Shown: positions 20,385 to 37,428 of the stretch, one piece after another
Numbering within the stretch: position 1 is the first letter of the stretch
Layout: every line of letters starts with the position of its first letter
Origin: an uncultured Bacteroidales bacterium
GTDB lineage: Bacteria; Bacteroidota; Bacteroidia; Bacteroidales; Muribaculaceae
DNA length: 37,821 nt
Assembly: GCA_947072905.1 (NCBI GenBank)
Contig: CAMTKF010000027.1
Span: 1 to 37,821, forward strand
Direction of reading: 5' to 3'
The notes under the pieces: model-generated
What the model saw: only the letters and a program-made list of their open reading frames with translations
The model's database searches: none
Told to the model about the DNA's origin: nothing
Position numbers and translations under genes: made by a program

Positions 20385-20431
20385 TTAAGTGGATAAGATG
20401 AAACCACATACACCCCACCCATAACCGGTTG

Positions 20432-20439
20432 TAATTTTG
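20432..20439 (+). promoter_or_regulatory. -7 element before the replication/mobilization operon
   Basis: TAATTTTG matches TAnnTTTG about 70 bp before the DUF3853 start. No TTG is found at -33. The stretch 20440-20507 holds a small hairpin-prone sequence (GCTCTCTCAGAGGGC, 20465-20479) of unclear role. Confidence 0.45.
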
Positions 20440-20507
20440 CAGTGTCCGGGAGATACTCGGATACGCTCTCTCAGAGGGCGGAAGTATAATTCAAACCCAC
20501 ACTGCGT

Positions 20508-20828
20508 ATGACAAAAGACCAGTTACTCAAACTTCCTCTCTGGCAGTATACCGGAGAACAACTTTTAGAATTACTTGATTCCCGTAATGTCAAGGATAAC
20601 ATCGAACCAGACGGTGCAGCTATCACAGCAAAGCGATGGCTCGTCTATGGAATTGAAGGTCTCTGCGAACTTCTCCAGTGCAGCAAAGCAACTGCACACC
20701 GTATCAAGAACAGTGGCGTAATCAAAGATGCCATTACTCAAACGGGTAGAAAAATCGTTATCGACGCACAACTTGCGCTCGATCTTATCCAGTCATCAAA
20801 GAAGGGAGGTCGCCGATGCAAGAAGTGA
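20508..20828 (+). CDS. DUF3853 family helix-turn-helix protein
   Basis: 106 residues. The C-terminal half (YGIEGLCELLQCSKATAHRIKNSGVIKDA, about 48-76, then GRKIVIDAQLAL) is a MerR/excisionase-like winged helix: a helix-turn-helix followed by a wing. This family is common in Bacteroidota mobile elements directly ahead of a RepA-like ATPase gene, as here. It probably binds DNA at the element's origin or ends; excisionase or replication initiator roles are both possible. It overlaps the next gene by 13 bp. Confidence 0.8.
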   Translation: MTKDQLLKLPLWQYTGEQLLELLDSRNVKDNIEPDGAAITAKRWLVYGIEGLCELLQCSKATAHRIKNSGVIKDAITQTGRKIVIDAQLALDLIQSSKKGGRRCKK

Positions 20829-21859: not shown

Positions 21860-21872
21860 GAAACACCAAATT

Positions 21873-21920
21873 GGTTTGGTTTAGAAAAGGGCATATATAA
21901 TAGGCGCTAAACCAAGAACC
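21873..21920. repeat. GGTTTGG palindrome, copy A
   Basis: Left arm GGTTTGGTTTAG (21873-21884), right arm CTAAACCAAGAACC (21907-21920), AT-rich centre with GGGCATATATAA. Related to copies B (33873-33917) and C (35748-35790). It lies inside the ATPase-primase gap. Confidence 0.6.
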
Positions 21921-21945
21921 ATCTCACCCAAACATTTTAGAACCC

Positions 21946-22833
21946 ATGATCAAAGAGATTAAATCAATCCCTTTAGCCTCCTTCATGTCCCGAATCGGAC
22001 ATGAGCCTACGGCGAGAAAAGGAACAAGGCTCTGGTATAAGTCGCCTTTGCGACAGGAACATACGCCGTCATTCAAGGTCGAGACTGCGCTCAACTGCTG
22101 GTATGATTTCGGACTTGGCAGAGGCGGCAACATCATCGACCTTGCAGCCGAGTTGTATCAGACAACAGACCTGCGCCATATACTGCGTTGCATCGCTGAC
22201 AGCTACCCGGTACCATCGGTGCCGACAATCGCTTCCTCTTTTGCTCCGCGACACTCAGCACCGAGTATGGAGCGGTTTGAGGTCGTGCCACTGGAACACC
22301 GCGCACTTGTCGCATACCTCCAAGAGCGTGGCATCCCGGCACACATCGCCACGGCGAACTGCAAGGAGGCTCAATACAGCGTCAACGGCAAGTTTTATTT
22401 TGCCGTGGCATTTGAGAACGTCAGCGGAGGCTGGGAACTGCGCAACCGATATTTCAAAGGTTGCCGTAGACGCAAGGACATCTCATATTTGCCGTGGGCG
22501 AGAGATGGCCCGTCAGCAGAGTGTGCCGTGTTCGAGGGATTTATAGATTATCTCTCGGCACTCACACTCGGCATCATCAGTGGAGCCGACACAATCATAC
22601 TCAACTCGGTTGTCAATGTCAACAAGGCTGTGCCTTTTCTCAAAGGTTACACTACTATCAACTGCTACCTTGACAACGACAATGCCGGGAAAACAGCACT
22701 CGCCGAGTTGACCGCCATTTATGGCTCAACAATGATTGACCGCTCCACGCTCTACTCCGAGTTCAACGACTTGAATGATTTTCTTATCAATCGAAGTTTC
22801 ACCAAAAACACACTTTCCAATGAAAACAAATAA
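21946..22833 (+). CDS. primase-like protein with TOPRIM domain, zinc site lost
   Basis: 295 residues. N-terminal part resembles a CHC2 primase zinc domain (SPLRQEHTPSFKV about 27-39, then WYDFGLGRGGNIIDLA), but the metal-binding Cys/His pattern is missing, leaving only the fold signature. A TOPRIM domain follows, with VFEGFIDYLSAL (catalytic Glu, about 196-207) and CYLDNDNAGK (Asp-x-Asp, about 244-253). It likely primes element DNA together with the ATPase upstream. The DUF3408 gene starts 14 bp before its stop. Present in this order in many Bacteroidales mobilizable elements. Confidence 0.82.
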   Translation: MIKEIKSIPLASFMSRIGHEPTARKGTRLWYKSPLRQEHTPSFKVETALNCWYDFGLGRGGNIIDLAAELYQTTDLRHILRCIADSYPVPSVPTIASSFAPRHSAPSMERFEVVPLEHRALVAYLQERGIPAHIATANCKEAQYSVNGKFYFAVAFENVSGGWELRNRYFKGCRRRKDISYLPWARDGPSAECAVFEGFIDYLSALTLGIISGADTIILNSVVNVNKAVPFLKGYTTINCYLDNDNAGKTALAELTAIYGSTMIDRSTLYSEFNDLNDFLINRSFTKNTLSNENK

Positions 22834-23299
22834 ACCCACCGCATCCAAGTCAACCGAGTTGACCGATGCAACCAAATCCAAAGTATCGACCCTTAACCCC
22901 GAAGTCACAATGAAATCAGATAACTCCACCAACCCTAATCCCGCAGTCAACAGCGATAACACTGTTAACAGCACCACACCTGCCAACGCTGACAATCTGT
23001 TTGACAACGAACAGCCAGTAACCGAGGCAACTGCCGTAACCGAGCCACCGAAGCAACAGCGCATCGGCAGGCAGCAGCGCAAATCGGATTTCGCCGAGTT
23101 CAAGGCAACGTTCCTCACTCCTGCAAAGCTGGTGAACCGCCATGCCCTGAACATCGAAGGCGACCTATGGGACCAGCTTGAGCGCGTTTCCAGAATCCTC
23201 GGTGGCCGTGGCACTACCGTCAGCAGTTACGCCAACGCAATCCTCGCCGAGCATCTGAAACAGTATGCCGAAGACATCGAAATCTGGCGCAAACTCTGA
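22820..23299 (+). CDS. DUF3408 domain-containing protein
   Basis: 159 residues from ATG 22820, which overlaps the primase stop. A frame start at 22775 lies deeper in that gene and is less likely. The N-terminal 75 residues are low-complexity Thr/Asn/Ser/Pro-rich. The C-terminal part (ALNIEGDLWDQLERVSRI, then SYANAILAEHLKQYAEDIE) matches the DUF3408 pattern of Bacteroidota conjugative and mobilizable elements, and is predicted to be ribbon-helix-helix-like. It may bind the nearby oriT or take part in partition. Function unproven. Confidence 0.78.
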   Translation: MKTNKPTASKSTELTDATKSKVSTLNPEVTMKSDNSTNPNPAVNSDNTVNSTTPANADNLFDNEQPVTEATAVTEPPKQQRIGRQQRKSDFAEFKATFLTPAKLVNRHALNIEGDLWDQLERVSRILGGRGTTVSSYANAILAEHLKQYAEDIEIWRKL

Positions 23300-23341
23300 G
23301 CGCGTGATTGCAACTACATTTTGACCGCTAAATAGTCCTCG

Positions 23342-23448
23342 TAGTTTCGTGCACCTCGAAACTATCGTAGGGGTTCGGAATCGGAGGGAGCGAGTTTATG
23401 TTTTCGTATTACAAGTAATCCTCAAACGACTCGCTCCCCTCCGCTCCC
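23342..23448 (+). other. candidate origin of transfer (oriT)
   Basis: A 179-bp gap before mobA holds nested inverted repeats: TAGTTTCG/CGAAACTA (23342-23349 with 23357-23364), and a longer GC-rich pair around GGAGGGAGCGAGT (23377-23395 with 23429-23448, one extra C). Inside the longer loop is ATTAC/GTAAT (23408-23419). Position directly upstream of MobA/MobB fits an oriT. No nick site could be identified from sequence alone. Confidence 0.6.
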
Positions 23449-23478
23449 GATGGTCACAAACCTCAAACAGAATTTCCA

Positions 23479-23874
23479 ATGAAGAAATCCAATTTACGTC
23501 CCGCTAAAGGGCGTCCCAAGCTCCCGGCTGATGAACGAAAGTCCATCATGGTGCCGGTGAAATTCGACATAGACCAATATCAGGTAATGATGGACAAAGC
23601 TCTCACGGCAGGGCTCAACCGCTCGGAATATATCCGGCAGTCGGCACTGCACTGTAAAGTCGTGGAAAGGCTCACGCCAAGAGATGTCAAGGCAATCCGC
23701 GACCTTCAGGGAATCGCTGAAAATCTCAACCGCACGGCAAAATTTGTCGGTGCCATTCTAAAAGGTGGTGCCTCTGAGGAACAGATTGTCCGCACATACA
23801 GAGAGATAATTCAGTGCAAGGATTTTGTCCTTTCACTGATAAAAAACTATCGTAATACACCGGACAGCGTATGA
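23479..23874 (+). CDS. mobA: mobilization accessory protein (MobA/MobC-like)
   Basis: 131 residues. A basic N-terminus (KGRPKLPADERK) is followed by a ribbon-helix-helix motif (MVPVKFDIDQYQVMMDKA, then GLNRSEYIRQSAL) and the MobC-type helix (LQGIAENLNRTAKFV). It should bind oriT and help the relaxase form the relaxosome. It overlaps the relaxase gene by 4 bp (ATGA), so the two are coupled. In Bacteroides naming this is MobA, the small partner. Confidence 0.87.
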   Translation: MKKSNLRPAKGRPKLPADERKSIMVPVKFDIDQYQVMMDKALTAGLNRSEYIRQSALHCKVVERLTPRDVKAIRDLQGIAENLNRTAKFVGAILKGGASEEQIVRTYREIIQCKDFVLSLIKNYRNTPDSV

Positions 23875-25079
23875 TGGGCAAGATAACAAAAGGCGGCAGT
23901 TTCGGCGGTTGTGTCGATTACGTCACTCGTCGAAAGAAGGATAATCCCGACGGCACGCCCTGTAATGAATGGCGTCTTATAGACTGCAAAGATGTATCTA
24001 TGATGGAAGGGAGAAATGGAATTATCGCTTCTTTTGAAGATAATCTCGCCTTGAATCCGGACTTGAAAAATCCGGTCGGGCATATTTCCCTGAACTTTCA
24101 TGCCAACGACAAGGATAAAGTTGATGACCGGATTATGGTAGAGATTGCCCAAAAATATATGAAGAAAATGGGCATCATGGATACTCCATACATCATTGTC
24201 CGGCATCTCGACAAAGATTATCCACACTGTCATATCGTGTTCAGCCGAATAGATAACCACGCCGAAACCATTTCCGATAAGAATGATTTCAGTCGCAACA
24301 AGGCAGCCTGTCTTGACTTGACAAAGGAATATGGACTGCACATTTCCGAGGGTAAAAAGCAGACTAATGTCAATAAATTGCGTGGCACGGAAAAGATACG
24401 ATATGAGATTTTCAATGCCGTTGACGCTGTATGGAACGATAAATCAGTCCATACTTTCGAGCAATTCGAGACTCGCTTAAAGGCGGCTGGTGTCGGCATA
24501 GAATACAAATACAAGCGTGGCACCAGCGAATTGCAGGGTCTATGGTACACCAGAAAAGGCAAGCGTTTCGCTGCATCAAAGATTGACCGGCGATTCAGTC
24601 TGGGCAATATATCCAAGCATCTGGCTAACAACAAACCGCTACATTCTCAGTCTCAATGGATGTATGCAGATGGCTCCATCGTGCCTATCGCATCATACAA
24701 AGGTGTGCGGCTTACGACACAACAAATGAATGATTACGTTGCGGGGAAAGCTATCCGAGTTGACGGATGTCAGGGAGATATGCCTACTGTGTGGATAAAA
24801 TTCAACCCACAGCGCATGACTCCGGGAGTCTATTCATCGAATCCGGATTTAGTCGGCCAATCCGCATCCCAGTCGCAAAACTATGGCACTCGGTTATCCC
24901 AAGTTCCATCCTCAGGAACCTCGCAGATGCAAGAAGGTTTTGCTAATGGAGGCGTTTTACCCGATGATTTCAAACTGTGGATGAGCCGCCATCCCGGACT
25001 TACCATTGAAGAGGCCCTTCATCGCTATCGTGAAGAACAAAAAGCCAAACGCCGCCGACAAGGGCCCAAACTACACTAA
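23871..25079 (+). CDS. mobB: relaxase (MobB, PF03432 type)
   Basis: 402 residues. Relaxase motif I has the probable catalytic Tyr17 in GGCVDYVTR, motif II GHISLNFHANDK (70-81), and motif III the metal-binding HxH, PHCHIVFSRID (118-128). It nicks oriT and pilots the strand into a recipient. The last 100 residues are a low-complexity tail with no clear domain. There is no coupling protein (TraG/VirD4) or type IV secretion gene here, so these must come from a helper. A GC-rich hairpin closes the operon. Confidence 0.93.
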   Translation: MMGKITKGGSFGGCVDYVTRRKKDNPDGTPCNEWRLIDCKDVSMMEGRNGIIASFEDNLALNPDLKNPVGHISLNFHANDKDKVDDRIMVEIAQKYMKKMGIMDTPYIIVRHLDKDYPHCHIVFSRIDNHAETISDKNDFSRNKAACLDLTKEYGLHISEGKKQTNVNKLRGTEKIRYEIFNAVDAVWNDKSVHTFEQFETRLKAAGVGIEYKYKRGTSELQGLWYTRKGKRFAASKIDRRFSLGNISKHLANNKPLHSQSQWMYADGSIVPIASYKGVRLTTQQMNDYVAGKAIRVDGCQGDMPTVWIKFNPQRMTPGVYSSNPDLVGQSASQSQNYGTRLSQVPSSGTSQMQEGFANGGVLPDDFKLWMSRHPGLTIEEALHRYREEQKAKRRRQGPKLH

Positions 25080-25379: not shown

Positions 25380-28199
25380 ATGGCACTTACTCAAAGCGAA
25401 GATGCACTGGAAAAAGGTTTGATAAAGACTCTCACGGATATGGCGTATGAATACGTTGAAATCCATGAGGAGACTAACCTTATATCAAATTTCAAACGAC
25501 AGTTGGAAAAACACAATGCCAAGGAACTTGCGCAACATGGCAGAACGGAACTTACGGACAATGAGTTCAATAAGGTCATGCTCTATCTTGAAGGTGGCAC
25601 CACGTTTGAGAAAGCCAAAAAACTGCGGGATTTGCTTCCTTTGGAACTTGACAACGGACAGCGCGTATGGCTTGAATTTCTTAATCGTCATAAATGGTGT
25701 CAGAATGAATTTCAAGTTTCCAACCAGATAACTTTAGAAGGCCGTCGTCAGTGCCGTTATGATGTTACCATTCTGATTAACGGTCTGCCATTGGTGCAGA
25801 TTGAGTTGAAGAAACGTGGTGTTGAATTAAAACAAGCATACAATCAGGTTCAACGCTACCACAAGACATCATTCCACGGTCTGTTCAACTATATTCAGAT
25901 TTTCGTGATTTCCAACGGCGTGAACACCCGCTATTTTGCCAATAACCCTAATAGTGGTTACAAGTTCACGTTTAACTGGACTGATCGGAAGAACAATCCG
26001 TTCAACCAACTAAGTCTTTTCGCGGCTGAATTCTTCGACCCATGCACACTCGGCAAAATTATCAGCAAGTACATCGTACTTCACGAAGGCGATAAATGTA
26101 TGATGGTTTTGCGCCCATATCAATATTATGCCGTTGAGGAAATCCTCAACCGTGTGGTCAACAGCAATGATAACGGCTATATCTGGCACACAACCGGAGC
26201 GGGAAAGACGTTAACCTCATTCAAAGCCGCACAGCTTGTTTCTGAAATTGATGAAATAGACAAGGTGCTTTTTGTCGTTGACAGGCACGACCTCGACACT
26301 CAGACACAGGCGGAATATGAAGCCTTTGAGCCGGGAGCTGTGGATGGCACTGACAGTACTAAGGAACTTATACAGCGTCTCGGAAGTGATAAGAAGATAA
26401 TAATCACCACTATTCAAAAGCTGAATTGCGCAGTCACCAAAGACTATTACAACCGTCATCTTCAAGATGTGCGCGATAAAAAGGTCGTGATGATTTTTGA
26501 TGAGTGCCACCGAAGCCATTTTGGAGAAAGTCACAAAAATATTGTCCACTTCTTTAACAACCTTCAGATATTCGGCTTCACCGGCACTCCGATATTCGTC
26601 GAAAACTCAAAGAATGACCGCACAACCAAAGAAATCTTCGGTAATTGCCTGCACAAGTATCTGATTAAAGATGCTATCGCCGATGACAATGTACTGGGCT
26701 TTCTCGTTGAATATTACACCGGCAACGCAGACCTTGATCTTGAAAGCGATAGCCGTATGCGCGAAGTCGCACGGTTTATCCTCAACAACTTCAATAAGTC
26801 CACTTTTGATGGCGAGTACAACGCTCTGTTTGCCGTTCAGTCAGTGCCGATGCTTTTGCGTTACTACAAGATTTTTAAGGGATTGAATCCAGACATCAAA
26901 ATCGGTGCGATATTCACTTACGCAGCAAACGGCAGTCAGGATGATGAAGCCACCGGCATGAACCGGGGTTTCGCAAATCCGAAAGTCGCCGCCGATGAGA
27001 TGCAGGAAATCATAGATGACTACAACAAAACCTTCGGCACATCCCATTCGGTAGAAAACTTCGGACTCTACTATGACGACATCAACAAGAGAATGAAAAA
27101 GAAAGACCCGAAGATGAAGCCTTTGGACTTGTTGCTCGTCGTCGGGATGTTCCTTACGGGTTTCGATGCCAAGAAGCTCAACACTCTCTATGTTGATAAA
27201 AATCTTGAATATCATGGTCTGTTGCAGGCTTTCAGTCGCACGAATCGTGTACTGAACGAGAAAAAGAGATTCGGAAAGGTGATCTGCTTCCGCGACCTCA
27301 AAAGCAACGTGGATGCGTCTATAAAGCTGTTCTCCGACAATAATCCTATTGAAGATATAGTGCGTCCGCCGTTCAAGGATGTCAAGCGCGAGTACATTGA
27401 AAAAACCGAACAGTTCCTGTCTAAGTATCCGAATGTTGATGAGATAGACAATCTTGAAAGTGAGAACGACAAAGTGGCGTTTGTCCTTGCTTTCCGCGAC
27501 ATAATCAAGAAACACGCTGAAATGCAGATTTATGAGGAATATTCGCCTTCGGATATATCTTTCATAATGACTGAGCAGGAGTTTCAGGACTTCCGCAGCA
27601 AGTATCTTGACATAGCACAGAATTTCGGTTCAAAACCGGCAAAGGTTGCCGCCGAACCCGCTGCCGCTTATGGCGCCGAACCGGAAACGACACTTGAAGA
27701 TATTGACTTTTGTCTTGAACTGCTACACAGCGACGTAATCAACGTGGCATACATCCTCGCGCTGATTCACGACCTTGACCCGGCAAGCGATGATTACTCT
27801 GAAAAACGCCGTGAGATTCTTGACACGATGATTCGTGATGCCGAGATGCGCAGCAAGGCTGAGCTTATCGACGGTTTCATCAGCGAGAATGTCGATGCCA
27901 ATCAGGATGAGTTCCGGCGGTCTAAGGCTGACGGCACAATAGATCTTGAATCACGACTGGTGGATTATGTACGCAGAGCAAAAGACCGTGCCGTAGAGCA
28001 ACTTGCTGCGGAGGAAGAAATCGACCAGACGGCACTTCATAAGTTCATGGAGGAATACGACTATCTCCACCGTGAGAAGGACGAGATACTTCAGGATGCC
28101 ATAAAGAAAAAGAAACTCGGTCTGAAACAACGCCGCAGCGTATTCAACCGTATTCTTCAAAAACTTCGTAAAATAATAGAAATCTACAACTGGGAATAA
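25380..28199 (+). CDS. hsdR: type I restriction endonuclease, R subunit
   Basis: 939 residues. It forms an R2M2S complex that translocates DNA with ATP and cuts unmodified DNA away from the recognition site. The nuclease domain has the PD-(D/E)xK pattern: Asp128 in CRYDVTILINGL, Glu142-x-Lys144 in QIELKKRG. The helicase motor has Walker A TTGAGKT (271-277) and DECH box IFDECHRSHFG (372-382), then GFTGTPIF and later VGMFLTGFDAKKL, with FSRTNRVLNEKK as motif VI. The C-terminal 200 residues are helical and would contact the MTase. hsdM starts 3 bp after the stop. Confidence 0.96.
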   Translation: MALTQSEDALEKGLIKTLTDMAYEYVEIHEETNLISNFKRQLEKHNAKELAQHGRTELTDNEFNKVMLYLEGGTTFEKAKKLRDLLPLELDNGQRVWLEFLNRHKWCQNEFQVSNQITLEGRRQCRYDVTILINGLPLVQIELKKRGVELKQAYNQVQRYHKTSFHGLFNYIQIFVISNGVNTRYFANNPNSGYKFTFNWTDRKNNPFNQLSLFAAEFFDPCTLGKIISKYIVLHEGDKCMMVLRPYQYYAVEEILNRVVNSNDNGYIWHTTGAGKTLTSFKAAQLVSEIDEIDKVLFVVDRHDLDTQTQAEYEAFEPGAVDGTDSTKELIQRLGSDKKIIITTIQKLNCAVTKDYYNRHLQDVRDKKVVMIFDECHRSHFGESHKNIVHFFNNLQIFGFTGTPIFVENSKNDRTTKEIFGNCLHKYLIKDAIADDNVLGFLVEYYTGNADLDLESDSRMREVARFILNNFNKSTFDGEYNALFAVQSVPMLLRYYKIFKGLNPDIKIGAIFTYAANGSQDDEATGMNRGFANPKVAADEMQEIIDDYNKTFGTSHSVENFGLYYDDINKRMKKKDPKMKPLDLLLVVGMFLTGFDAKKLNTLYVDKNLEYHGLLQAFSRTNRVLNEKKRFGKVICFRDLKSNVDASIKLFSDNNPIEDIVRPPFKDVKREYIEKTEQFLSKYPNVDEIDNLESENDKVAFVLAFRDIIKKHAEMQIYEEYSPSDISFIMTEQEFQDFRSKYLDIAQNFGSKPAKVAAEPAAAYGAEPETTLEDIDFCLELLHSDVINVAYILALIHDLDPASDDYSEKRREILDTMIRDAEMRSKAELIDGFISENVDANQDEFRRSKADGTIDLESRLVDYVRRAKDRAVEQLAAEEEIDQTALHKFMEEYDYLHREKDEILQDAIKKKKLGLKQRRSVFNRILQKLRKIIEIYNWE

Positions 28200-28202: not shown

Positions 28203-29747
28203 ATGAGCGAGGAACTCCAGCAGCAGCTTCGCAGTCAGCTTTGGACTGTGGCAAACAACCTTCGCGGCAATATGTCGGCGAGCGACTTTATGTATTTCAC
28301 CCTCGGATTCATATTCTACAAATACTTGTCCGAGAAGATTGAGATGTATGCCGATGACATATTGTCGGAGGACGGTGTTACATTCAAGAATGCTTGGGCA
28401 AGCGACGATGCCGAGTTGAAAGCCGACATAAAAGACGAGTGTCTAAGCAACCTCGGATACTTCCTTGAGCCGGAGTTCCTTTTCTCAAGCATTATCGAGG
28501 CGGTTGACCGCAGAGAGAACATCCTGCCTCAACTTGAACGCTCGCTGAAGAAAATAGAGGACAGCACCGTAGGTCAGGACAGCAATGAGGATTTTGGCGG
28601 TCTTTTCTCCGACATTGACCTCGCTTCGCCTAAGTTGGGAAAGTCTGCCGATGATAAGAATACACTAATTTCCAACGTGCTTGTAGCCCTCAACGGCATA
28701 GACTTCGGACTTAACGAGGCTTCCGACATCGACATTCTCGGCGATGCATACGAGTATATGATCGGTCAGTTTGCTGCCGGTGCCGGTAAAAAAGCCGGTG
28801 AGTTTTACACTCCTCAGGAGGTTAGTCAGATTCTCGCCGAGGTAGTGACCACTGGAAAGACACGTCTGCGCGATGTATATGACCCTACTTGCGGTTCCGG
28901 CTCCCTTCTTCTGCGCACAGCACGCAACGGCAATGCCGACACCATTTATGGACAAGAGAAAAACCCCACCACATTCAATCTTGCCCGTATGAATATGCTC
29001 CTTCATGGTGTCAAGTACAAGGATTTCACCATAGAAAACGGTGACACCCTCGAAGCTGATGCTTTCCCCGACAGAGAGTTTGATGCCGTGGTTGCAAATC
29101 CTCCTTTCTCGGCACAATGGAGCGCGGCGGAGAAATTCAACTCTGACGACCGTTTCAGCAAGGCAGGGGCATTGGCTCCGAAATCGAAAGCGGACTACGC
29201 TTTCATCCTGCACATGATTCATCATCTCAATGAGGGCGGTACACTCGCCTGTGTAGCTCCCCACGGCGTACTATTCCGTGGTAATGCCGAGGGTAAGATA
29301 CGCCGTTATCTCATTGAGAACAAGAACTACATTGACGCTATTATCGGTTTGCCACCAAACATCTTCTACGGCACGGGAATACCAACCTGCATCATCGTAG
29401 CCAAGAAATGCCGCAAGGAGGATGACTCCATTCTCTTTATTGATGCAAGCCGGGAGTTTGAGAAGGTTAAGACGCAAAACAAACTGCGCCCCGAACACAT
29501 ACAGAAGATTGTAGATACCTATCGCAATCGTACTGAAATCGAAAAATACAGCCATCTGGCTTCGCTTAAGGAGATAGCCGACAACGATTATAACCTCAAC
29601 ATTCCCCGCTATGTAGATACATTCGAGGAAGAGGAAGAAATCGACATCAAGGCAGTAATGGCAGACATCAAAGAGCTTGAAGCGAAACGCTCTGAACTCG
29701 ACGCGCAAATCGAAGTGTATCTCCGCGAACTTGGAATCGTGGAATAA
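28203..29747 (+). CDS. hsdM: type I DNA methyltransferase, M subunit
   Basis: 514 residues. The N-terminal HsdM helical domain (LRSQLWTVANNLRGNMSASD, about 9-28) precedes a gamma-class N6-adenine methyltransferase: SAM motif I DPTCGSGS (227-234), TPQE before it, and catalytic NPPF (299-302) followed by SAQW. The C-terminus is a charged helix (DIKELEAKRSELDAQIEVYL) that packs against HsdS. It methylates adenines in the host's copy of the target sequence chosen by HsdS. Confidence 0.96.
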   Translation: MSEELQQQLRSQLWTVANNLRGNMSASDFMYFTLGFIFYKYLSEKIEMYADDILSEDGVTFKNAWASDDAELKADIKDECLSNLGYFLEPEFLFSSIIEAVDRRENILPQLERSLKKIEDSTVGQDSNEDFGGLFSDIDLASPKLGKSADDKNTLISNVLVALNGIDFGLNEASDIDILGDAYEYMIGQFAAGAGKKAGEFYTPQEVSQILAEVVTTGKTRLRDVYDPTCGSGSLLLRTARNGNADTIYGQEKNPTTFNLARMNMLLHGVKYKDFTIENGDTLEADAFPDREFDAVVANPPFSAQWSAAEKFNSDDRFSKAGALAPKSKADYAFILHMIHHLNEGGTLACVAPHGVLFRGNAEGKIRRYLIENKNYIDAIIGLPPNIFYGTGIPTCIIVAKKCRKEDDSILFIDASREFEKVKTQNKLRPEHIQKIVDTYRNRTEIEKYSHLASLKEIADNDYNLNIPRYVDTFEEEEEIDIKAVMADIKELEAKRSELDAQIEVYLRELGIVE

Positions 29748-29785
29748 GAATCCTTAATGTTGAACAGTAAAGATTGAAAATCCCG

Positions 29786-31021
29786 ATGACTGACACTGAA
29801 AACAATAAAAACTCCAATTCGCCCGTTTTGCGCTTCCCCGGCTTCACCGAGCCGTGGAAAAAGTGTCGACTGGGTGACTATATACGCATTTTTAGCGGAG
29901 AAAGCCCCAATTGTGTTAGTTCAAAATTTGGAATAATACCATATTACAAGGTTGAACAACTAAATTGGTGTGAGAAATATTTAGGAGAAACTCCATATCT
30001 GAGCCAACGAGGAAAGAATATTTTACCAGAAGGCTGTGTCGTTTTCTCTAAAAGAGGTGCCGCAATCCTAACCAACAAGGTCAGAATGAATCTCTTCCCG
30101 ATTAATATTGATACCAATTTGATGGGAATTAAAGCAGATAATTCGTTTATCTCAGATCAATATTTGTTTTATTTCATTCTCCGAGCAAGATTAAGTCGAA
30201 TTGCGGATACCTCAACTATTCCTCAAATCAATAATATTCATATTAATCCCATCACTATACATGTTCCATCTTTAGAAGAGCAAGAAAAAATAACTCGGTC
30301 CTTGGGACTACTCGATGAGCGCATAGCTACCCAAAGGAGGCTGATTGAGGATTTGGAAAAACTAAAGTCCTCAATTGTTGAAGAAGTATACTGCTCACCA
30401 AGAGAAAATGTCCCTCGTCAGAGAATCAATAAGAAATATGTTGATAACTGGTCAGTATGTCAACTTGGTGATATTTGCACACGCATAACAAGGAGAAATA
30501 CCACTATTGAATCAAACCGTATTCTTACAATCGCAGCTCAATATGGACTGATTGATCAATGTTCATTCTTCAACAAAGTAGTTGCAAGTGAGAATCTAAG
30601 CAATTATTATATTCTTAAAAAGGGCGATTTCGCATACAATAAAAGTTATTCAGGTGATTATATTTGGGGCGCAGTAAAAAGGTTGGACAAATATGAATCA
30701 GGTGTATTGTCTCCCCTCTATATCTGCTTCCAGCCAAAAGAAAAACTCATTGACTCAGATTATCTTTTGTTTTACTTTGAGTCAAAGAAATGGCACAAAG
30801 ATATTGCAGAAATTGTTGTTGAAGGAGCAAGAAATCACGGACTGCTGAATGTCTCGATAAAAGATTTCTTTAATATGCTAATACCTTTGCCATCGCTTGA
30901 TGAGCAAAGAGATATAGCAGCCACTATTAGAGCCGTTTTGATAAAGATAGAATGCGAGAGAACAATATTACAAAGATATGAAAGTCAGAAAGGCTACCTT
31001 CTATCAAAGATGCTCATATAA
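29786..31021 (+). CDS. hsdS: type I specificity subunit S, expressed copy (TRD1a-TRD2a)
   Basis: 411 residues from ATG 29786; the TTG at 29774 would add four residues and is less likely. It sets the DNA target of the complex through two recognition domains: TRD1 (about 15-165) and TRD2 (about 215-365). These are separated by the coiled conserved region SLGLLDERIATQRRLIED (about 172-189) and closed by a second one ending YLLSKMLI. DNA at the 5' end and at the central region is repeated inverted in the silent copies downstream, so this gene is the expression locus of an inversion system. Its 3' end overlaps the convergent silent cassette by 8 bp. Confidence 0.93.
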   Translation: MTDTENNKNSNSPVLRFPGFTEPWKKCRLGDYIRIFSGESPNCVSSKFGIIPYYKVEQLNWCEKYLGETPYLSQRGKNILPEGCVVFSKRGAAILTNKVRMNLFPINIDTNLMGIKADNSFISDQYLFYFILRARLSRIADTSTIPQINNIHINPITIHVPSLEEQEKITRSLGLLDERIATQRRLIEDLEKLKSSIVEEVYCSPRENVPRQRINKKYVDNWSVCQLGDICTRITRRNTTIESNRILTIAAQYGLIDQCSFFNKVVASENLSNYYILKKGDFAYNKSYSGDYIWGAVKRLDKYESGVLSPLYICFQPKEKLIDSDYLLFYFESKKWHKDIAEIVVEGARNHGLLNVSIKDFFNMLIPLPSLDEQRDIAATIRAVLIKIECERTILQRYESQKGYLLSKMLI

Positions 31022-31034
31022 ACATCTTCGATAG
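31001..31034. repeat. inverted repeat at the convergent hsdS ends
   Basis: CTATCAAAGATG (31001-31012) and CATCTTCGATAG (31023-31034) match at 11 of 12 positions. They encode the shared C-terminus LLSKM on opposite strands and could also act as a hairpin between the convergent genes or as a further recombination site. Confidence 0.55.
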
Positions 31035-31637
31035 CAGATAGATTCTCTGTTGAATATATCTGTTATGCAATTCTATTTCTGTCGATATTTTGTCGGTTAA
31101 CAACTGGAGAGTATTGAAGATCTTTATTTGATATTCTTTTGCGGGAAGTGAGAATTTTATATTCATCAACGATGGCTTATGTAAATTGAAGCGAGTGCTG
31201 CCTTGTGCATAGGGGATTATCTTCCTACGGAAATAAGTCGTTGAAGTAAAGTATCCCATATAAGGGGGATACACCATTTCAGACTCTTGAATATGTATGC
31301 CAAAACAAAAACTATTCAAGTATAGTTCTTTAGCATTCCCCATATATACAGCGGAATAGCCAATTTCTTCGGGCGTTTCCGACGACAGGGTAAACAGTAA
31401 ATCGCCCGTGCGTACCTTATTCTGATTCTCTCCGTCTCTAATCTCCACATTATCAAAATTGTAATCGGTTATCACTTGATTCTGATATACGTTCAGATAT
31501 GAGATAAAAGGCTTTCCATAGCCAAAATCTTCAGCGGATTTCCCGGTCAAACCTCCATAATCAATGCCAATTTCATTGAATGACGTTTTGCAATCCGTGG
31601 TCAATGTTTCATATAGCGTTTCATTTATTGAGGACAT
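31014..31637 (-). CDS. silent hsdS half-gene (TRD2c cassette)
   Basis: 207 residues from its internal ATG. The frame continues upstream to 31658, where IEDIFQS matches the central region of hsdS (IEDLEKL), and a stop lies just before that. It therefore carries only a second recognition domain plus the C-terminal conserved helix ending YLLSKMFI. No promoter or ribosome binding site is visible, and the stop of the neighbouring silent copy is only 23 bp from the first homologous codon. It is best read as a storage cassette whose module can be joined to the expressed hsdS by inversion. The repeat it shares with hsdS is only 10 bp perfect, so its use is less certain than that of TRD2b. Confidence 0.8.
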   Translation of the reverse strand: MSSINETLYETLTTDCKTSFNEIGIDYGGLTGKSAEDFGYGKPFISYLNVYQNQVITDYNFDNVEIRDGENQNKVRTGDLLFTLSSETPEEIGYSAVYMGNAKELYLNSFCFGIHIQESEMVYPPYMGYFTSTTYFRRKIIPYAQGSTRFNLHKPSLMNIKFSLPAKEYQIKIFNTLQLLTDKISTEIELHNRYIQQRIYLLSKMFI

Positions 31638-31663
31638 TGATTGAAATATATCCTCAATCTATG

Positions 31664-32884
31664 TCACACGAACATCTTGGATAACAAATATTCTCGTTGC
31701 TCTGTGTAATGGGTCAATATGGACTTTTCAAGAATAATCTTGTCGCTAATTGTATCCAAGCATTTAGCGAGGGTTAATGCCTCGCTTTCATCGGTTGGCA
31801 GAGGGACGCTGTTTGCTAAGAATCCACTGTTTGTGATGTTGATTGTGTTTTTCGCACCTTTCTGAATTATAGGATGAAGATAGTTAAAAGTATTTACCTC
31901 GCTCTCAAAGTAGTAACCCAGCAATATACCAATCCAATCATATTTAGGAACAAATACCCCATATAATGGGGAAATAGCTGCCGGTAATTTCTGAGTGTTG
32001 CGTTTGACTATTCCATAAGGGAAACTCCCGGTCGGGCTTTTGGTATATATAATATCCCCATAGCGAGCAACATTATAATGTCCTGTCTCTTTTGCAGCAA
32101 ATGAGCGACCAAGATATTCTATCTGATTTACAACTCCCTCAGAAACCGATACCGAGCAAACATTGTATCCCGCAGAGTTTTTTTCGCCGCGCTCGGTCAG
32201 AATGTCACTTAATGAGGTCAACTTCCACGACTTCTTGGATAAGCCTCTTGATATTGCGTTTTGTAGTAATGCTCTACGCAAAGATATAAAATCCTCAATC
32301 AGCCTCCTTTGAGTTGCAATGCGCTCGTCAAGGAGTTGTAAAAAATATGCGATTTTTGATTGTTCATCAATTGAAGGAATAGAGACCACGAGCGATTTCA
32401 AGGATTCTTTATAGAGATGGACAACGGAAACACCTTGGGCTAATTTGGCGATCTCCCGCTTGCGTACCCCATTTAGTTGATAGCACAAAAAAGAACCACT
32501 ATCATTATTCAATCGAATAATATTTAAGTCTCCCCCTAAGAAAACATCATTTTTGAGGACACATCGTGCAGTGGCAATATCTTCGGCAGTTTCGCCTGAG
32601 GATGGGATTATGACATCATTTGCCACACTTTTAATCAGGCTGTCTTCTGGTAAATTCGTCCTACTGATAACGTTTGTGATATTTGTGGCAGTATACGTGG
32701 TATATAGTTCTCCATATAGAATGCATGGTTTCCCGTTCTCATTCCTTTGGTCTTTAGATATACCTGCACCTTTACTGAATGTCGCGATTTTCCCTAATCG
32801 AATTCTTCTCCACGGTTCGGTGAATCCGGGGAAGCGCAGGGAGGGTGCGGATGTGGAAACGGGCGAATTGATGCGATATTTTCT
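31664..32884 (-). CDS. silent hsdS copy (TRD1b-TRD2b), no start codon
   Basis: An open frame of 406 codons between stops, the length of a full hsdS, but it has no ATG in its N-terminal part; the first usable start (GTG near 32626) would lose most of TRD1. The translation begins INSPVSTSAPSLRFPGFTEP, matching the expressed gene's NSNSPVLRFPGFTEPW. It continues with a different TRD1, the central LLDERIATQRRLIED, a different TRD2 and the end YLLSKMFV. It is thus complete except for the first ten or so codons and promoter, which inversion at CAATTCGCCCGTTT would supply in frame. Confidence 0.85.
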   Translation of the reverse strand, partial: RKYRINSPVSTSAPSLRFPGFTEPWRRIRLGKIATFSKGAGISKDQRNENGKPCILYGELYTTYTATNITNVISRTNLPEDSLIKSVANDVIIPSSGETAEDIATARCVLKNDVFLGGDLNIIRLNNDSGSFLCYQLNGVRKREIAKLAQGVSVVHLYKESLKSLVVSIPSIDEQSKIAYFLQLLDERIATQRRLIEDFISLRRALLQNAISRGLSKKSWKLTSLSDILTERGEKNSAGYNVCSVSVSEGVVNQIEYLGRSFAAKETGHYNVARYGDIIYTKSPTGSFPYGIVKRNTQKLPAAISPLYGVFVPKYDWIGILLGYYFESEVNTFNYLHPIIQKGAKNTINITNSGFLANSVPLPTDESEALTLAKCLDTISDKIILEKSILTHYTEQREYLLSKMFV

Positions 32885-32916
32885 TTAATTATCCTAATCA
32901 ATTCATTTCAACGAAT

Positions 32917-33846
32917 ATGGAAAAAGAAAAAATCACAATCAAAGATCTCGCTGTCCTTTGGAAAAAGGACAAGCGACAGTATGTGAAGCAATCCACATAC
33001 TCAGCCTACGCCCTAATCGTAGAGAATCAAATAATCCCGACATTCGGGAATCTTTACGCCTTGACCGAAGCGGATGTGCAGTCGTTTGTAATCGACCGAC
33101 TTAACTCCGGTCTGAGTCAGAAGTACGTCAAGGACATACTCATAGTCCTGAAAATGATAGTTCGCTTCGGCGAAAAGCACGGCTATCTCCAACACTGCGA
33201 GTGGGACATCAAATATCCGACCGCTCCCGAAAAGCAAGGCTTAGAAGTCCTGACAGCCGCAAACCACCGCAAAATTCTGGACTACATCAGCCAGAACTTC
33301 ACATTCCGCAATCTCGGCATATACGTCTGCCTTACGACCGGGCTACGCATCGGGGAGGTATGCGGCTTGAAATGGTGCGATCTCGACATTGAACGCTCAA
33401 TGCTGACTGTGCAACGCACGGTGGAGAGAATCTATGTTCTCGAAGATGACGGCACCAAACACACTCAAATCGTCGTCAATACTCCCAAGACCGCAAACTC
33501 CGCCCGCGAAATACCGCTCAACAAGCCCCTGATGACAATGATACGACCCTTTAAGAAGGTCGTCAACAACGAATACTACGTCATAAGCAACGAGCCGCAG
33601 CCCATTGAGCCGCGTACCTACCGCAACTACTACATGAAGCTGATGAAACAGCTCGGCATACCCCCGCTGAAATTTCACGGACTACGCCATAGTTTCGCCA
33701 CACGCTGCATCGAAAGCAACTGCGATTACAAAACGGTCAGCGTCATACTCGGCCATGCCGACATCGCCACAACTCTCAACCTTTACGTCCATCCGGGCGC
33801 TGAGCAAAAGAAAAAGTGCATCGACAAAATGCTCCGCTCCCTCTGA
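32917..33846 (+). CDS. tyrosine recombinase, probable hsdS invertase
   Basis: 309 residues. N-terminal core-binding (SAM-like) domain at about 1-105, catalytic domain after it. Catalytic set: Arg144 (TTGLRIGEVCGL), His254-x-x-Arg257 (FHGLRHSF), His280 (ILGHADI) and Tyr290 (LNLYVHP). Located 47 bp beyond the last hsdS inverted repeat and separate from the element's own integrase, it is the natural candidate for hsdS inversion, an arrangement known for Bacteroidota type I systems. It lacks the arm-binding domain that the element integrase has. Confidence 0.93.
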   Translation: MEKEKITIKDLAVLWKKDKRQYVKQSTYSAYALIVENQIIPTFGNLYALTEADVQSFVIDRLNSGLSQKYVKDILIVLKMIVRFGEKHGYLQHCEWDIKYPTAPEKQGLEVLTAANHRKILDYISQNFTFRNLGIYVCLTTGLRIGEVCGLKWCDLDIERSMLTVQRTVERIYVLEDDGTKHTQIVVNTPKTANSAREIPLNKPLMTMIRPFKKVVNNEYYVISNEPQPIEPRTYRNYYMKLMKQLGIPPLKFHGLRHSFATRCIESNCDYKTVSVILGHADIATTLNLYVHPGAEQKKKCIDKMLRSL

Positions 33847-33975: not shown

Positions 33976-35001
33976 TTACATGGGCATTGAGCGGAAACGA
34001 TTTTCCAATTGTTCGAGCCGGTCAATTAGTGCATCAAACGACAGCTTCTCCCCGTAAATCATGGAGGTTTTCATTGTTTCGTAGTCAAGGCGCATTTTGT
34101 CGCGCAATTCGCCAGTCGGACAGAATGCGATGGTTGACGGATGGTTAAGCTCGTAGTTTACACCGCCGACATGATAGAATCGTTGGCGATGGGCGATGAT
34201 TTCCTGATATAATTCCATGTCGGAGAGTGCGGCTTCTGCAAAAGCAGTGTCCATCAGTCGCTCCAAATCATAAAGATGGCGGCTCATGCGGTCGGAGCGA
34301 GGTGAACGACGCTGGTATTCCTCATTGAGCAGAAAGGCTTTTTCAAGGAATGTGCGTGTCGGTGTTATGGTCGGTATTTCGGCAAATGTCTCACCGTCAA
34401 TCTCCGGGAAAGCATTGCCAACGAGTGATGATATGCGCTTGACTTCAAACGGTTCTTTCATCGAAAGACAACTTATCTCAATCTTGACTACGGGACGCAC
34501 ATACGCATCAGAGTCAACTTTGACCGGATAGTGAATCTCTATGATTACCGGATCGCTGTCGTGGTCGATTGGCGAACCGTCCTTCTTTGTGGTTATCGGT
34601 ACTACCTTGCATTCGCCTAAACCGGATTCTATAAGTTTCGATTCCAATTCCTTTGCGAACTCGCCAAGTATATAATCACGATTGACAATGCGGAGATTCT
34701 TCACCTGATTGTTAGTTGCAGCTTTAGCGCAATCCTTACCAAGTTCATTGAGATAGAAATCACGATAGAGGGCTATGTCGATGTCTTCCGAAAAGCGGTC
34801 AATCAGGTTCCAGCCTTTGCTGAGACTTGTTCCACCTTTGAAGAACATATACTTTGCCGGGGAAAGGGAAAACAGAACCTTCAAAATGGCAGTAACCCAC
34901 CAGTCCTTTTCAACCGCACCCACGCTGATGTTCTTTTCATTTGCTATAATATATGCCGACTGTTGACGGTCAGCATCCGAGGCATCAATCCATCTGCTCA
35001 T
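33976..35001 (-). CDS. AbiEii-family nucleotidyltransferase toxin
   Basis: 341 residues from the ATG at 35001, which overlaps the antitoxin stop by 17 bp; the further upstream frame to 35058 lies within the antitoxin gene. The DUF1814 nucleotidyltransferase core shows FKGGTSLSK (54-62) and SEDIDIAL (71-78), the GS-x-DxD type active site of the pol-beta fold. A conserved Lys/Asp region (TPTRTFLEKAFLLNEE, RHLYDLERL) follows. AbiE systems abort phage infection; related toxins add nucleotides to RNA such as tRNA. Paired with AbiEi in an operon. Confidence 0.9.
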   Translation of the reverse strand: MSRWIDASDADRQQSAYIIANEKNISVGAVEKDWWVTAILKVLFSLSPAKYMFFKGGTSLSKGWNLIDRFSEDIDIALYRDFYLNELGKDCAKAATNNQVKNLRIVNRDYILGEFAKELESKLIESGLGECKVVPITTKKDGSPIDHDSDPVIIEIHYPVKVDSDAYVRPVVKIEISCLSMKEPFEVKRISSLVGNAFPEIDGETFAEIPTITPTRTFLEKAFLLNEEYQRRSPRSDRMSRHLYDLERLMDTAFAEAALSDMELYQEIIAHRQRFYHVGGVNYELNHPSTIAFCPTGELRDKMRLDYETMKTSMIYGEKLSFDALIDRLEQLENRFRSMPM

Positions 35002-35596
35002 TTCGTTTGATTTTATCCTTTGTTTCGATAATAATTTTTCTAATCCAGCGCGGAGCACGAGCTATATCTTCTTGCCATGTCTCTTCCTCCGGGCTTTCTT
35101 TCAACACGCCATAAACTACGTCAAGAGTATTATCATCAACATTATATTGCTTGATAGACTTTAGCGCAAGCACTAATATCGGCATAATCTTGCCCTTATA
35201 TGCAAATGTCGATGGCACACTATGTTTAAGAGTCAGAGTACGTTTGCCAATCTTTATTTTACGTGGTGTTCCTGATGTAAGATACACGGAGTTCATTGGA
35301 ACTTGTGTTGAAAAACCGAGATAATTCTCAGCAGTCGCTCCGGTTGGCAACAGTTGCGCATCATCACGTTTTGCTATGGTCTGTGCTATTTCTCCTATCG
35401 TCGGAATAACGGGCCCAAATCGTGATTCTTTTGGCTTAACGTATATCCCTGTGGCAACTCTGACAAGCTTCCCTTCATTGCATAGTTCTGACAATATGTT
35501 GGAGGCGTAGTGAGTATCAATAGGCAAAAAGCTATCCGGCAAGAAGATGGTGCCCTTCTTGCTGCGATTGACCTTTGAGATAATTGTTTGTTTCAT
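34985..35596 (-). CDS. AbiEi-like antitoxin (DUF6088), transcriptional autorepressor
   Basis: 203 residues. An N-terminal winged-helix domain (about 1-55, TIFLPDSFLPIDTHYASNIL, then LCNEGKLVRVATGIYVKP) is followed by the antitoxin domain (TGATAENYLGFSTQVPMN, VYLTSGTPRKIKIGKRTL). In characterised AbiE pairs the antitoxin represses its own promoter and neutralises the toxin without stable complex formation (type IV). Here the pair has its own promoter with a spaced repeat, and the toxin ATG overlaps this gene by 17 bp. Confidence 0.88.
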   Translation of the reverse strand: MKQTIISKVNRSKKGTIFLPDSFLPIDTHYASNILSELCNEGKLVRVATGIYVKPKESRFGPVIPTIGEIAQTIAKRDDAQLLPTGATAENYLGFSTQVPMNSVYLTSGTPRKIKIGKRTLTLKHSVPSTFAYKGKIMPILVLALKSIKQYNVDDNTLDVVYGVLKESPEEETWQEDIARAPRWIRKIIIETKDKIKRNEQMD

Positions 35597-35840: not shown

Positions 35841-37226
35841 CTACTTTAGACGTGAGGCACGAGTAAGACGGTCTTCCTTGATGTAGCGGCTGAGTGATGC
35901 TTCGGTGGTGTGGCCCGTGGCTGCACAGATTACATCTCGGTCATTACCTCGTAGTCGCATATTAGTGGCGAATGAGCGGCGCCCGGTGTGGCAGCTCACC
36001 ATCTGCCATCGCTGGTATATGTCGGTTTTGCGTCCGGCTCTGCCATTGCCTACGTCGGCGGTATATGCCTTGGTAACATATCCGGCTAATGTACTTTCCG
36101 GATTTGCCTCATATACAGCTTTCATTATTTCTTTCAGCGCATCGTTGAACTTCTGGTTGCTGATTACACGTGGCATCGCCTTTCCGTCATCGTATAAGTC
36201 GAGGATTGCTTGAGTTTCGGGCAAAATCTTTACCACCGATACCTTATCGGTCTTTTTTGCTTTATATTGGATATATCGTTCTCCATCCTCTGTTACATGA
36301 ATGGAGTTGTAATTGAGTTGTTCGAGGTCGGAGTGTCTGGCTCCTGTCCAGCACATCAATATGAACTGATTGCGCACGGTTCTGAGGTGTTCGGTTGGCA
36401 ACTCTTGTTTTGCTATCAGATCAATCTCACTTTCGAGCAGAGCGATACTTTCCGACTCCTCTTTCAGCTTTTCACATCTAAGGAAATCTTCTGCCATACA
36501 TTGTATGCGCATCGGTTGGTCGCGGATAACGGTCTTGATTACCTTGATATGGTCGCCGATAGTATTTAGCTTTAATCCCTCTCCATAGGCAAAGGATAGA
36601 TAATCGGAATAAAACGACTTATTGAGTTCGTCAAACCGAATATCGGTGATATGCTTCTTCTTCATAAAGTCGCGGATATAGCGGCGAAGATGCTTGTAGT
36701 GCTGTATCGTTTTCAGTCCAATTGGTTTGCCGTGCCATGTTCGAGCCGGGGCAGCATCAATAAAGACATCAAGAGCCACAATGAAGGATTCTTCACGCTG
36801 TCGGAGCATCGCTTCAAGTTCTTCTTTTTTGCGCCGCTGTTCAGCCTCACGTTGAGCTTTCTTACGCTCTTGTGCTTCTTCCTGTGCTTTCCGTTGTGCC
36901 TCCTGAAACTCGCGTTGCTCTTTATGGGCGAATTCATCTATCGCCTTATCAAGTTTCGTTCTTGAACCTTTAGGGTCGTTGATTATAGTATCAATCAGAG
37001 CCGACATTTCATCAAGCTTGTCGCAGAGTTCCTTCCCTGGACCGGCACGAAATGTATTCCACCGTCCGGGAGTGGAAATGGCGTCATTCCAAGTCTTGAT
37101 GTCAACTTCAATTCGAGAGTGGAGCATAAGATTGGAGTTGAAGCCAACGCGACGGGTATAAAGAGGCGCAACGCCGGTTTTCTTGGTGGTTCGCAGTACG
37201 AATTTAGTATATGCTGATTTAGCCAT
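35841..37226 (-). CDS. int: tyrosine integrase of the element
   Basis: 461 residues from ATG 37226; the longer frame to 37304 runs into the promoter and repeats. N-terminal arm-binding domain (SAYTKFVLRTTKKTGVAPLY, about 4-23), then an unusually long charged helix rich in Gln, Glu, Lys and Arg (about 92-148), a core-binding domain and the catalytic domain: Arg297 (TGARHSDL), His413-x-x-Arg416 (HTGRRSF), His439 (GHTTEAS), Tyr448 (LSRYIKE). It sits next to attR, reads inward and should integrate the element at the tRNA-Gln end. The promoter overlaps the TTGATACAA repeats, so autoregulation by Int binding is plausible. Confidence 0.95.
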   Translation of the reverse strand: MAKSAYTKFVLRTTKKTGVAPLYTRRVGFNSNLMLHSRIEVDIKTWNDAISTPGRWNTFRAGPGKELCDKLDEMSALIDTIINDPKGSRTKLDKAIDEFAHKEQREFQEAQRKAQEEAQERKKAQREAEQRRKKEELEAMLRQREESFIVALDVFIDAAPARTWHGKPIGLKTIQHYKHLRRYIRDFMKKKHITDIRFDELNKSFYSDYLSFAYGEGLKLNTIGDHIKVIKTVIRDQPMRIQCMAEDFLRCEKLKEESESIALLESEIDLIAKQELPTEHLRTVRNQFILMCWTGARHSDLEQLNYNSIHVTEDGERYIQYKAKKTDKVSVVKILPETQAILDLYDDGKAMPRVISNQKFNDALKEIMKAVYEANPESTLAGYVTKAYTADVGNGRAGRKTDIYQRWQMVSCHTGRRSFATNMRLRGNDRDVICAATGHTTEASLSRYIKEDRLTRASRLK

Positions 37227-37253
37227 ATTCGATAAGTGTTTATCTAATAACGG

Positions 37254-37261
37254 CAAAGGTA
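37254..37261 (-). promoter_or_regulatory. -7 element of the integrase promoter
   Basis: TACCTTTG on the minus strand (37261-37254), 28 bp before ATG 37226. The TTGATACAA doublet occupies the -33 region immediately upstream. Confidence 0.55.
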
Positions 37262-37279
37262 TATGATATAGTTCAAAAG

Positions 37280-37299
37280 TTGATACAAAGTTGATACAA
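37280..37299 (+). repeat. right-end tandem TTGATACAA repeats, candidate integrase arm sites
   Basis: TTGATACAA at 37280-37288 and 37291-37299, period 11 bp, the same unit and period as at 18946-18965. The rest of the gap to attR (37300-37413) is AT-rich with no ORF. Confidence 0.6.
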
Positions 37300-37413
37300 A
37301 TCAAAGCGACATTATGATGCTTTTTGCGACTTTATGAAATTGTTAAAATGTATAACCATTTAATATTGGCATATTTACAAAATCGAAGTTTCACGAAATA
37401 TCACAAAAGTTGC

Positions 37414-37428
37414 CCTTCCAAGGCAACA
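37414..37428 (+). repeat. attR direct repeat
   Basis: CCTTCCAAGGCAACA, identical to attL. With the preceding GTTGCC it forms a small palindrome (GTTGCC/GGCAAC). Confidence 0.88.

Follow-up and report, generated by a model that had tools for sequence, protein, structure and literature searches.

Can the specificity of a type I restriction-modification (R-M) system be switched by DNA inversion at two separate levels, and does such a switch travel between hosts with the element that carries it? The question is raised by a 37,821-nucleotide stretch of DNA, hereafter the window, from an uncultured Bacteroidales bacterium of the Muribaculaceae (assembly GCA_947072905.1, contig CAMTKF010000027.1, positions 1 to 37,821 of the forward strand), in which 18.8 kb of host genes run up to a tRNA-Gln gene (18796-18867) and are followed by an element whose hsdR, hsdM and hsdS together form a complete type I R-M gene set. 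An earlier note, made from the sequence alone, had proposed that the hsdS copies form a two-level shufflon with its own recombinase inside a mobilizable element; we take the term shufflon loosely, as in the Bacteroides fragilis papers, and not in the strict R64-type Rci sense. We found that the switch is real, was active in the recent past at both levels, is borne on the element and has recently moved between genera. Taken as a whole, the locus is best explained by a two-level inverting hsdS switch on a recently transferred mobilizable element, a reading that we hold with high confidence.

Results and Discussion

Anatomy of the switch

The switch consists of the following features, in which TRD denotes a target recognition domain and G102 and G476 are a further genome and an IMG/VR contig, respectively, that carry the element:

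29786..31021, plus strand: expressed hsdS, TRD1a-TRD2a, 411 amino acids, with two Methylase_S stretches in its translation
29815..29828, plus strand: 5' recombination repeat, expressed arm, 14 bp, where the crossover in G476 is placed
30332..30354, plus strand: central recombination repeat, expressed arm, 23 bp, where the crossover in G102 is placed
31014..31658, minus strand: half cassette TRD2c (open reading frame (ORF) 31014-31637, frame open to 31658)
31664..32886, minus strand: silent full-length hsdS, TRD1b-TRD2b, an open frame with no start codon
32289..32311, minus strand: central recombination repeat, silent arm, 23 bp, from repeat comparison
32857..32870, minus strand: 5' recombination repeat, silent arm, 14 bp, from repeat comparison
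32917..33846, plus strand: tyrosine recombinase beside the switch, 309 amino acids, Pfam Phage_integrase

The reading frames and Methylase_S matches bear out the claimed arrangement of an expressed TRD1a-TRD2a gene facing a start-less TRD1b-TRD2b copy and the half cassette TRD2c. In the expressed gene, ATG 29786 is the most likely start of translation (TTG 29774 in the ORF list). The silent copy keeps one open frame between about 32886 and 31664, in which no ATG, GTG or TTG precedes TRD1b. Both inverted repeat pairs, at the 5' end and at the centre, were found at the positions given in the earlier note. The 5' pair (29815-29828 / 32857-32870) is CAATTCGCCCGTTT, 14 bp and perfect, and is followed by arms matching at 80% (29829-29874 / 32793-32838), with a short extra stretch between 14-mer and second arm on the silent side. 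The central pair comprises 23 perfect bp within 48-nt arms (30307-30354 / 32289-32336) that are 88% complementary. When inverted k-mer pairs were counted in 300 dinucleotide shuffles of 29748-32916, none of the shuffles contained a 16-mer pair, of which the real sequence has eight that overlap and all belong to the 23-bp repeat; six shuffles contained a 14-mer pair, of which the real sequence has 11, ten of these belonging to the 23-bp repeat. By itself the 14-bp pair is just moderately beyond chance; it is settled as real because it is placed exactly at both gene starts and because inversion occurred there in G476. The tyrosine recombinase described after the last repeat is present, with an open frame and with RIGEVCGL, HGLRHSFAT and LGHAD...Y, which we take to be recombinase motifs, while the gap up to its ATG at 32917 is 46 nt and not 47.

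We also observed a palindrome, ATGTTTATATAAACAT, at the tail-to-tail junctions of convergent hsdS copies or at the end of a copy; it is made of the shared C-terminal ...MFI-stop codons. It measures 16 bp in L120, L121, L122 and L049, 14 bp in L134/L037 and 46 bp in L128, is imperfect at window 31010-31024, and might act as a terminator in both directions or be left over from the duplication of the copies.

Inversions at the central and 5' repeats

In the mechanism that we propose, inversion between the 14-bp 5' repeats would exchange the whole hsdS coding part with the silent copy and inversion between the 23-bp central repeats would exchange TRD2 only, whereby the expressed gene could become any combination of TRD1a or TRD1b with TRD2a or TRD2b and the HsdR-HsdM complex would be sent to a different bipartite target.

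For the central level, a search with the recombinase protein over 196 genomes (the window's own included) returned a single identical recombinase outside the own genome, in G102, which belongs to another genus and is assembled in three contigs. The 18.6-kb element is present there in full (window 18785-37430), 99.95% identical from the tRNA on, and differs outside the inverted part by five single-nucleotide polymorphisms (SNPs) between the attachment (att) repeats, at 24201, 27350, 27698, 33952 and 36455. Window 30307-32336 aligns reversed in G102, the inverted segment being 30332-32311. The inverted part differs solely at 12 arm positions that already separate both window arms, and all 12 remain with the outer flanks, which together with the lack of any SNP in the inverted segment places the crossover within the 23-bp repeat. 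The expressed hsdS of G102 is TRD1a-TRD2b; the central inversion thus exchanges TRD2 only, as had been predicted.

The 5' level is seen in the IMG/VR contig IMGVR_UViG_2837218921_000006 (L136, G476; its number resembles that of an IMG genome more than that of a metagenome), which carries the element with both pairs inverted relative to the window. Compared with G102, its switch differs by exactly one 3056-bp inversion, 100% identical and ending in the 14-bp repeats, so that the predicted exchange of both modules at the 5' pair is borne out with its crossover mapped to these repeats. The expressed hsdS of G476 is TRD1b-TRD2a with 425 amino acids and has gained STSAPS, the extra stretch by which the silent arm is recognised in the window. 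Over 19146-37413, G476 and the window are separated by four SNPs (19551, 27350, 27653, 33952), none of them within the flipped segments. Between mobA and hsdR, the G476 copy furthermore has an inserted transposase sequence of 1.37 kb, accompanied by a target duplication of 9 bp (L136 975-2201; window 25220-25228); this insertion may alter hsdRMS expression.

Both levels are hence observed in natural copies with exact crossovers, and the expressed frames are open in all three states (411, 397 and 425 amino acids in the window, G102 and G476, respectively). Three of the four combinations of TRD1a/b with TRD2a/b were found, on three contigs with different flanks, and G083, a relative of 89-92% DNA identity outside the TRDs, also has a TRD2b-like domain (86% amino acid identity) in the expressed place. 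As the flipped segments have no SNPs and the remainder of the element has four to five, both inversions are recent. Each state presumably confers a methylation motif of its own.

The element and its movement between hosts

The bounds and further genes of the element are as follows:

18854..18868, plus strand: attL, 15-bp direct repeat CCTTCCAAGGCAACA at the 3' end of tRNA-Gln (18796-18867)
19143..25079, plus strand: front part, from Pfam matches and NCBIfam matches below their cut-offs
25380..28199, plus strand: hsdR, type I restriction subunit, from Pfam and NCBIfam TIGR00348 over cut-off
28203..29747, plus strand: hsdM, type I methyltransferase subunit, from Pfam and NCBIfam TIGR00497 over cut-off
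33976..35596, minus strand: AbiEii / AbiEi pair, from Pfam and PADLOC, the second defence module of the element
35841..37304, minus strand: element integrase, a tyrosine recombinase with Phage_int_SAM_5 (Pfam), the last gene
37414..37428, plus strand: attR, 15-bp direct repeat CCTTCCAAGGCAACA

The front part encodes, in this order, an unassigned ORF (19143-20270), DUF3853, AAA_25, a Toprim/zinc-ribbon primase-like protein, DUF3408, a NikA-like mobilization protein and, closing it, a MobA/VirD2-type relaxase (23871-25079, Pfam). As the element has a relaxase and no mating-pore families were seen among its Pfam-scanned ORFs, the short ORFs having been scanned in part, the label that suits it best is integrative mobilizable element. 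An integrase is present, both the window and G102 have the 15-bp att repeats at the tRNA-Gln 3' end, and the proposal that the switch resides on a mobilizable element holds in two genera as well as for a third contig whose flanks differ.

The host DNA around the copies differs. Six of the eight pieces of window 9368-18867 that align to G102 do so at 64-74% DNA identity, scattered over the G102 chromosome, and the remaining two (78% and 80%) end in the tRNA. The G102 copy lies inside a 3.3-Mb contig, in the same tRNA gene and with the same 15-bp att repeats, between other host flanks. Left of window position 19146, G476 has 1,365 bases at its contig end without a match; its right flank is not that of the window (about 150 bases are alignable at lower identity) and has no match to that of G102. 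Copies of 99.95% identity between different host flanks indicate that the element moved between hosts. Plasmid records contained five distant recombinases (32-63%) and no close copy, and a search for a second copy of the locus in the own genome returned only the window and the window's own repeats.

The left end of the element (window 18854-18947) contains a terminator-like hairpin that is about 80% similar to the own sequence of G102 at and beyond attR (C1:1901192-1901278), a resemblance suggesting that the tRNA gene gains a substitute terminator on insertion and perhaps hinting at an earlier host. Similar hairpin repeats (AGTTTGGTTTGG...) occur at window 33872-33900, after the recombinase, and at 35740-35798, beside the AbiE genes. 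Near-identical pieces of the former are found elsewhere in G102, G083 and G050, and these repeats are probably a dispersed terminator-like repeat.

Recombinase, sites and number of specificities

Alignment of the arms suggested a shared motif, CAAA-N8-AT, on opposite strands at the two levels. It is antisense in 16 of 20 5' arms (9/10 expressed, 7/10 silent; other strand 0/20), and 21 of 22 central arms have it on the gene strand (11/11 expressed, 10/11 silent; other strand 1/22), with about 0.03 expected per 60-base strand window, figures to be read with the caution that the motif was chosen by eye on part of the same data and that the loci are related, so that the counts are not independent. 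The central tract is coding and conserved, yet the 5' motif lies on the other strand of another coding stretch, which makes a common coding reason unlikely. Each locus in which a core was found at both levels has a different 8-bp core at each of them (for the window, ACGGGCGA and GGAGGCTG). Tyrosine recombinases require matching cores, and a difference of this kind would therefore insulate the levels against exchange between them. We infer that inversion at both levels is the work of the adjacent tyrosine recombinase, acting on related CAAA-N8-AT sites.

The frame of TRD2c opens at a GATTGAGGAT tract (31659-31650) directly past the TRD2b stop, and these 10 bp are all that TRD2c shares with the central repeat. 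The earlier note had counted 2 x 3 = up to six specificities. The combinations of TRD1a/b with TRD2a/b stand, three of them having been seen; because only 10 bp are common and TRD2c is not expressed in any of the four alleles, six is an upper bound. On the sequences compared, four specificities are supported.

Among the 24 recombinase loci, nine have HsdS similarity beside the recombinase (L036, a fragment only, L037, L039, L041, L043, L046, L049, L050 and L055, the last by Pfam). No family was seen beside the recombinase in two (L054, L059), and five have too little upstream sequence (L040, L045, L047, L048, L057). Seven begin less than 700 bp from the upstream contig end (L036, L040, L043, L045, L046, L047, L048), of which three (L036, L043, L046) show HsdS similarity in the remaining sequence; L057 is cut inside the gene, and none of the 24 lies near a contig end downstream. 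Relatives of 56-61% identity occur in records with Firmicutes names (L044-L050), and L054, L056, L057, L058 and L059 match just part of the recombinase. Some relatives (G003:C8, G040:C175, G068:C40) have an in-frame stop in the matched stretch, which suggests that the gene decays in places.

Relatives of the hsd locus

The DNA from hsdM to the recombinase was searched against 397 genomes (the own included) at E 1e-30 or better, and 30 of them matched. We examined 20 hsdM-bearing contigs, all but that of the window. Nine of these (G102/L135 apart), found via hsdM DNA, together with L039, found via the recombinase, provide ten uncut relatives' loci. In all ten the recombinase follows the silent hsdS copy (cut short in L121), and both repeat levels (at least 13 bp) are present in nine (L118, L120, L121, L122, L123, L125, L128, L134, L039), the 5' pair being missing from L126. 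Among five cut or more distant loci (L041, L043, L046, L049, L050), a long central pair was found in L049 only.

Half of the 20 hsdM contigs end before a recombinase: seven at most 740 bp past hsdM (L116, L117, L124, L127, L129, L130, L131), two inside hsdM (L119, L133) and one later (L132). Breaks after hsdM are as expected from a flipping region, and breaks of this sort would suit mixed populations; since repeats alone can break assemblies, we dropped them as proof of switching and regard them as supporting only.

A PF03432 relaxase match was present in 11 of the 20 genomes. Besides the window and G102, it was on the hsdM-locus contig only in G219:C7 (about 13 kb at the nearest), G083:C11 (about 52 kb) and G468:C22 (about 85 kb), which means that this hsd module does not generally reside on such an element.

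Weighing the alternatives

Several observations weigh against a locus that still switches, at both levels, by means of its own recombinase. The three states come from three different genomes or contigs with one state each. G477 (L138 7488-15261), a 96% relative of the element front with a relaxase of 100% amino acid identity and about 96% DNA identity over 22436-29860, has a single hsdS. Eight of the 24 recombinase loci have other genes beside the recombinase: in L038 (1721-3142), L044 (8581-10001) and L052 (8579-10001), recombinases of 61-64% identity lie just downstream of outer-membrane efflux genes, and the other neighbours are a TonB receptor (L051), a regulator (L042), a C5 methylase and a MutH-like gene (L053), a histidine kinase (L056) and an HNH gene (L058). 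Neither 5' arm of L125 has CAAA-N8-AT, and the window and G083 lack it in their silent 5' arm, in addition to the caution attached to its counts. TRD2c, finally, is without the CAAA half of the site, and all four alleles compared (window, G102, G476, G083) have another TRD2 in the expressed place.

That the inverted states are historical or mere assembly differences, at a locus that no longer switches, would agree with the single state per genome and with the locked single hsdS of G477. The one hsdS of G477 has both sites, no match to the silent copies or the recombinase was found in the stretch read, and it is followed by a Mom-family gene and then by genes for a reverse transcriptase and a bAvd-like protein that may belong to a diversity-generating retroelement; the switch is therefore a dispensable, separable part. 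The flipped segments without SNPs, against four to five elsewhere, nevertheless make the inversions recent, G102 is assembled in three contigs, and repeats of 14-23 bp are shorter than a read, which renders a false join unlikely, so we regard a switch that has come to rest as very unlikely. Contamination or misbinning in place of transfer, as the source of the near-identity across genera, would be favoured by the 94 contigs of the window's genome and by a right flank of only about 390 bp before the contig end. It is, however, contradicted by the window contig itself, which connects 18.8 kb of host genes to the element, and by the G102 copy, which lies inside a 3.3-Mb contig between identical 15-bp att repeats and is flanked by other host DNA, and we give it next to no credence.

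A different enzyme deserves somewhat more thought. The inversions might stem from general homologous recombination or be made by a host enzyme or the element's integrase, with the adjacent recombinase idle or serving something else, as its relatives beside efflux genes and the reports that some inversions at longer pneumococcal repeats need no PsrA (PMC7096588) and that spnIII recombination is independent of known pneumococcal site-specific recombinases (PMC6620402) would allow. We rejected the notion that all recombinase relatives belong to hsdS switches, and as the family is not hsdS-specific, it is adjacency and not family that links this enzyme to the switch. The 14- and 23-bp repeats are, on the other hand, short for RecA-type exchange by established knowledge, the recombinase follows the silent hsdS copy in all ten uncut loci, and SsuCC20p, with 14-bp repeats, is reported to rely on its own xerD (PMC10790761), leaving another enzyme unlikely. 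For a true six-state switch, in which TRD2c would be joined to TRD1 via the 10-bp GATTGAGGAT tract, it speaks that this join and its surroundings are kept in G083 and that in B. fragilis Q1F2 (L039) the silent copy combines a TRD1 with a TRD2c-like domain (51% amino acid identity). Besides the missing CAAA half and the four alleles without expressed TRD2c, TRD1-TRD2c junction DNA had no match in IMG/VR, a weak test as IMG/VR is a poor place for such elements. Six states are thus conceivable, with the balance of evidence leaning the other way. With these alternatives considered, the two-level switch on a transferred element is the reading that we retain.

Comparison with known systems

A close described counterpart is the hsdS shufflon BB of B. 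fragilis NCTC 9343 (BF1839-1842), with eight combinations and four repeat sets, and a related one is BF638R_1146-1149 (PMC3090145). As in BB, TRDs of a type I hsdS are rearranged site-specifically at inverted repeats with tyrosine integrases immediately adjacent, and the quoted BF repeat resembles the central arm described here; the recombinase of B. fragilis Q1F2 (L039), where both repeat levels are present, is 62% identical to ours. In contrast to BB, our locus has two levels with three states seen, and it lies on a defined mobilizable element in different hosts and not on a chromosomal island (PMC3090145). A type I shufflon is reported to have reached strain 638R via a large chromosomal transfer (PMC5729914).

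Of the type I systems in REBASE, 3.9% are reported to have inverted hsdS copies (PMC7394358). SpnIII/cod shares with our locus an expressed hsdS with silent copies, inverted repeats and a locus-borne tyrosine recombinase (PMC4190663, PMC7096588, PMC7394358), as well as a short repeat class, 15 bp there and 14 bp here. Its recombinase PsrA flips three repeat classes in vitro (PMC7096588) and acts at several repeat pairs through IR1-like sequences. It differs in its longer repeats of 85 and about 300 bp and its six states, compared with three seen here, and in the passages considered it is not described as element-borne. SsuCC20p of Streptococcus suis is likewise a phase-variable type I system on a mobile region in several species, recombinase-dependent and with 14-bp repeats, whereas it resides in a prophage region with two identical repeat sets, in another host phylum and vehicle (PMC10790761).

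The earlier note had seen the novelty in a switch that travels on an element, a claim that is weaker than stated, since enrichment of relaxase and MobC beside hsdS invertons is already in print. Inverton group 145 of the hCom2 gut community overlaps hsdS in Bacteroidota and Firmicutes_A, is enriched for tyrosine recombinase, relaxase and MobC, and has been proposed to spread by transfer, with no single element followed in the passages considered (PMC11892184). In the open-licence literature we found no paper tracing one mobilizable element through hosts in different states. The locus is hence a known kind of system in an unusually clean, well-resolved case.

Conclusion

The same element, few SNPs apart, occurs in different hosts in three states, with the crossovers mapped to 14-bp and 23-bp repeats, and the loosely stated idea that hsdS switches spread on mobile elements thereby becomes testable on one defined element. 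It raises the questions of whether an arriving copy is already mixed, whether its state affects establishment, and whether a resident state excludes an incoming copy in another. More tentatively, and with somewhat more doubt than conviction, we suggest that the element may re-set its own epigenetic identity while spreading: one recombinase acting on two site classes, with a common outer motif on opposite strands and different 8-bp cores, would let the levels flip independently, so that each new host lineage would obtain another specificity, helping the element past the restriction of hosts with a resident copy and shutting out rival elements. As HsdR and the AbiE pair are brought along as well, the element could alter both the methylome and the DNA-entry barrier of a new host.

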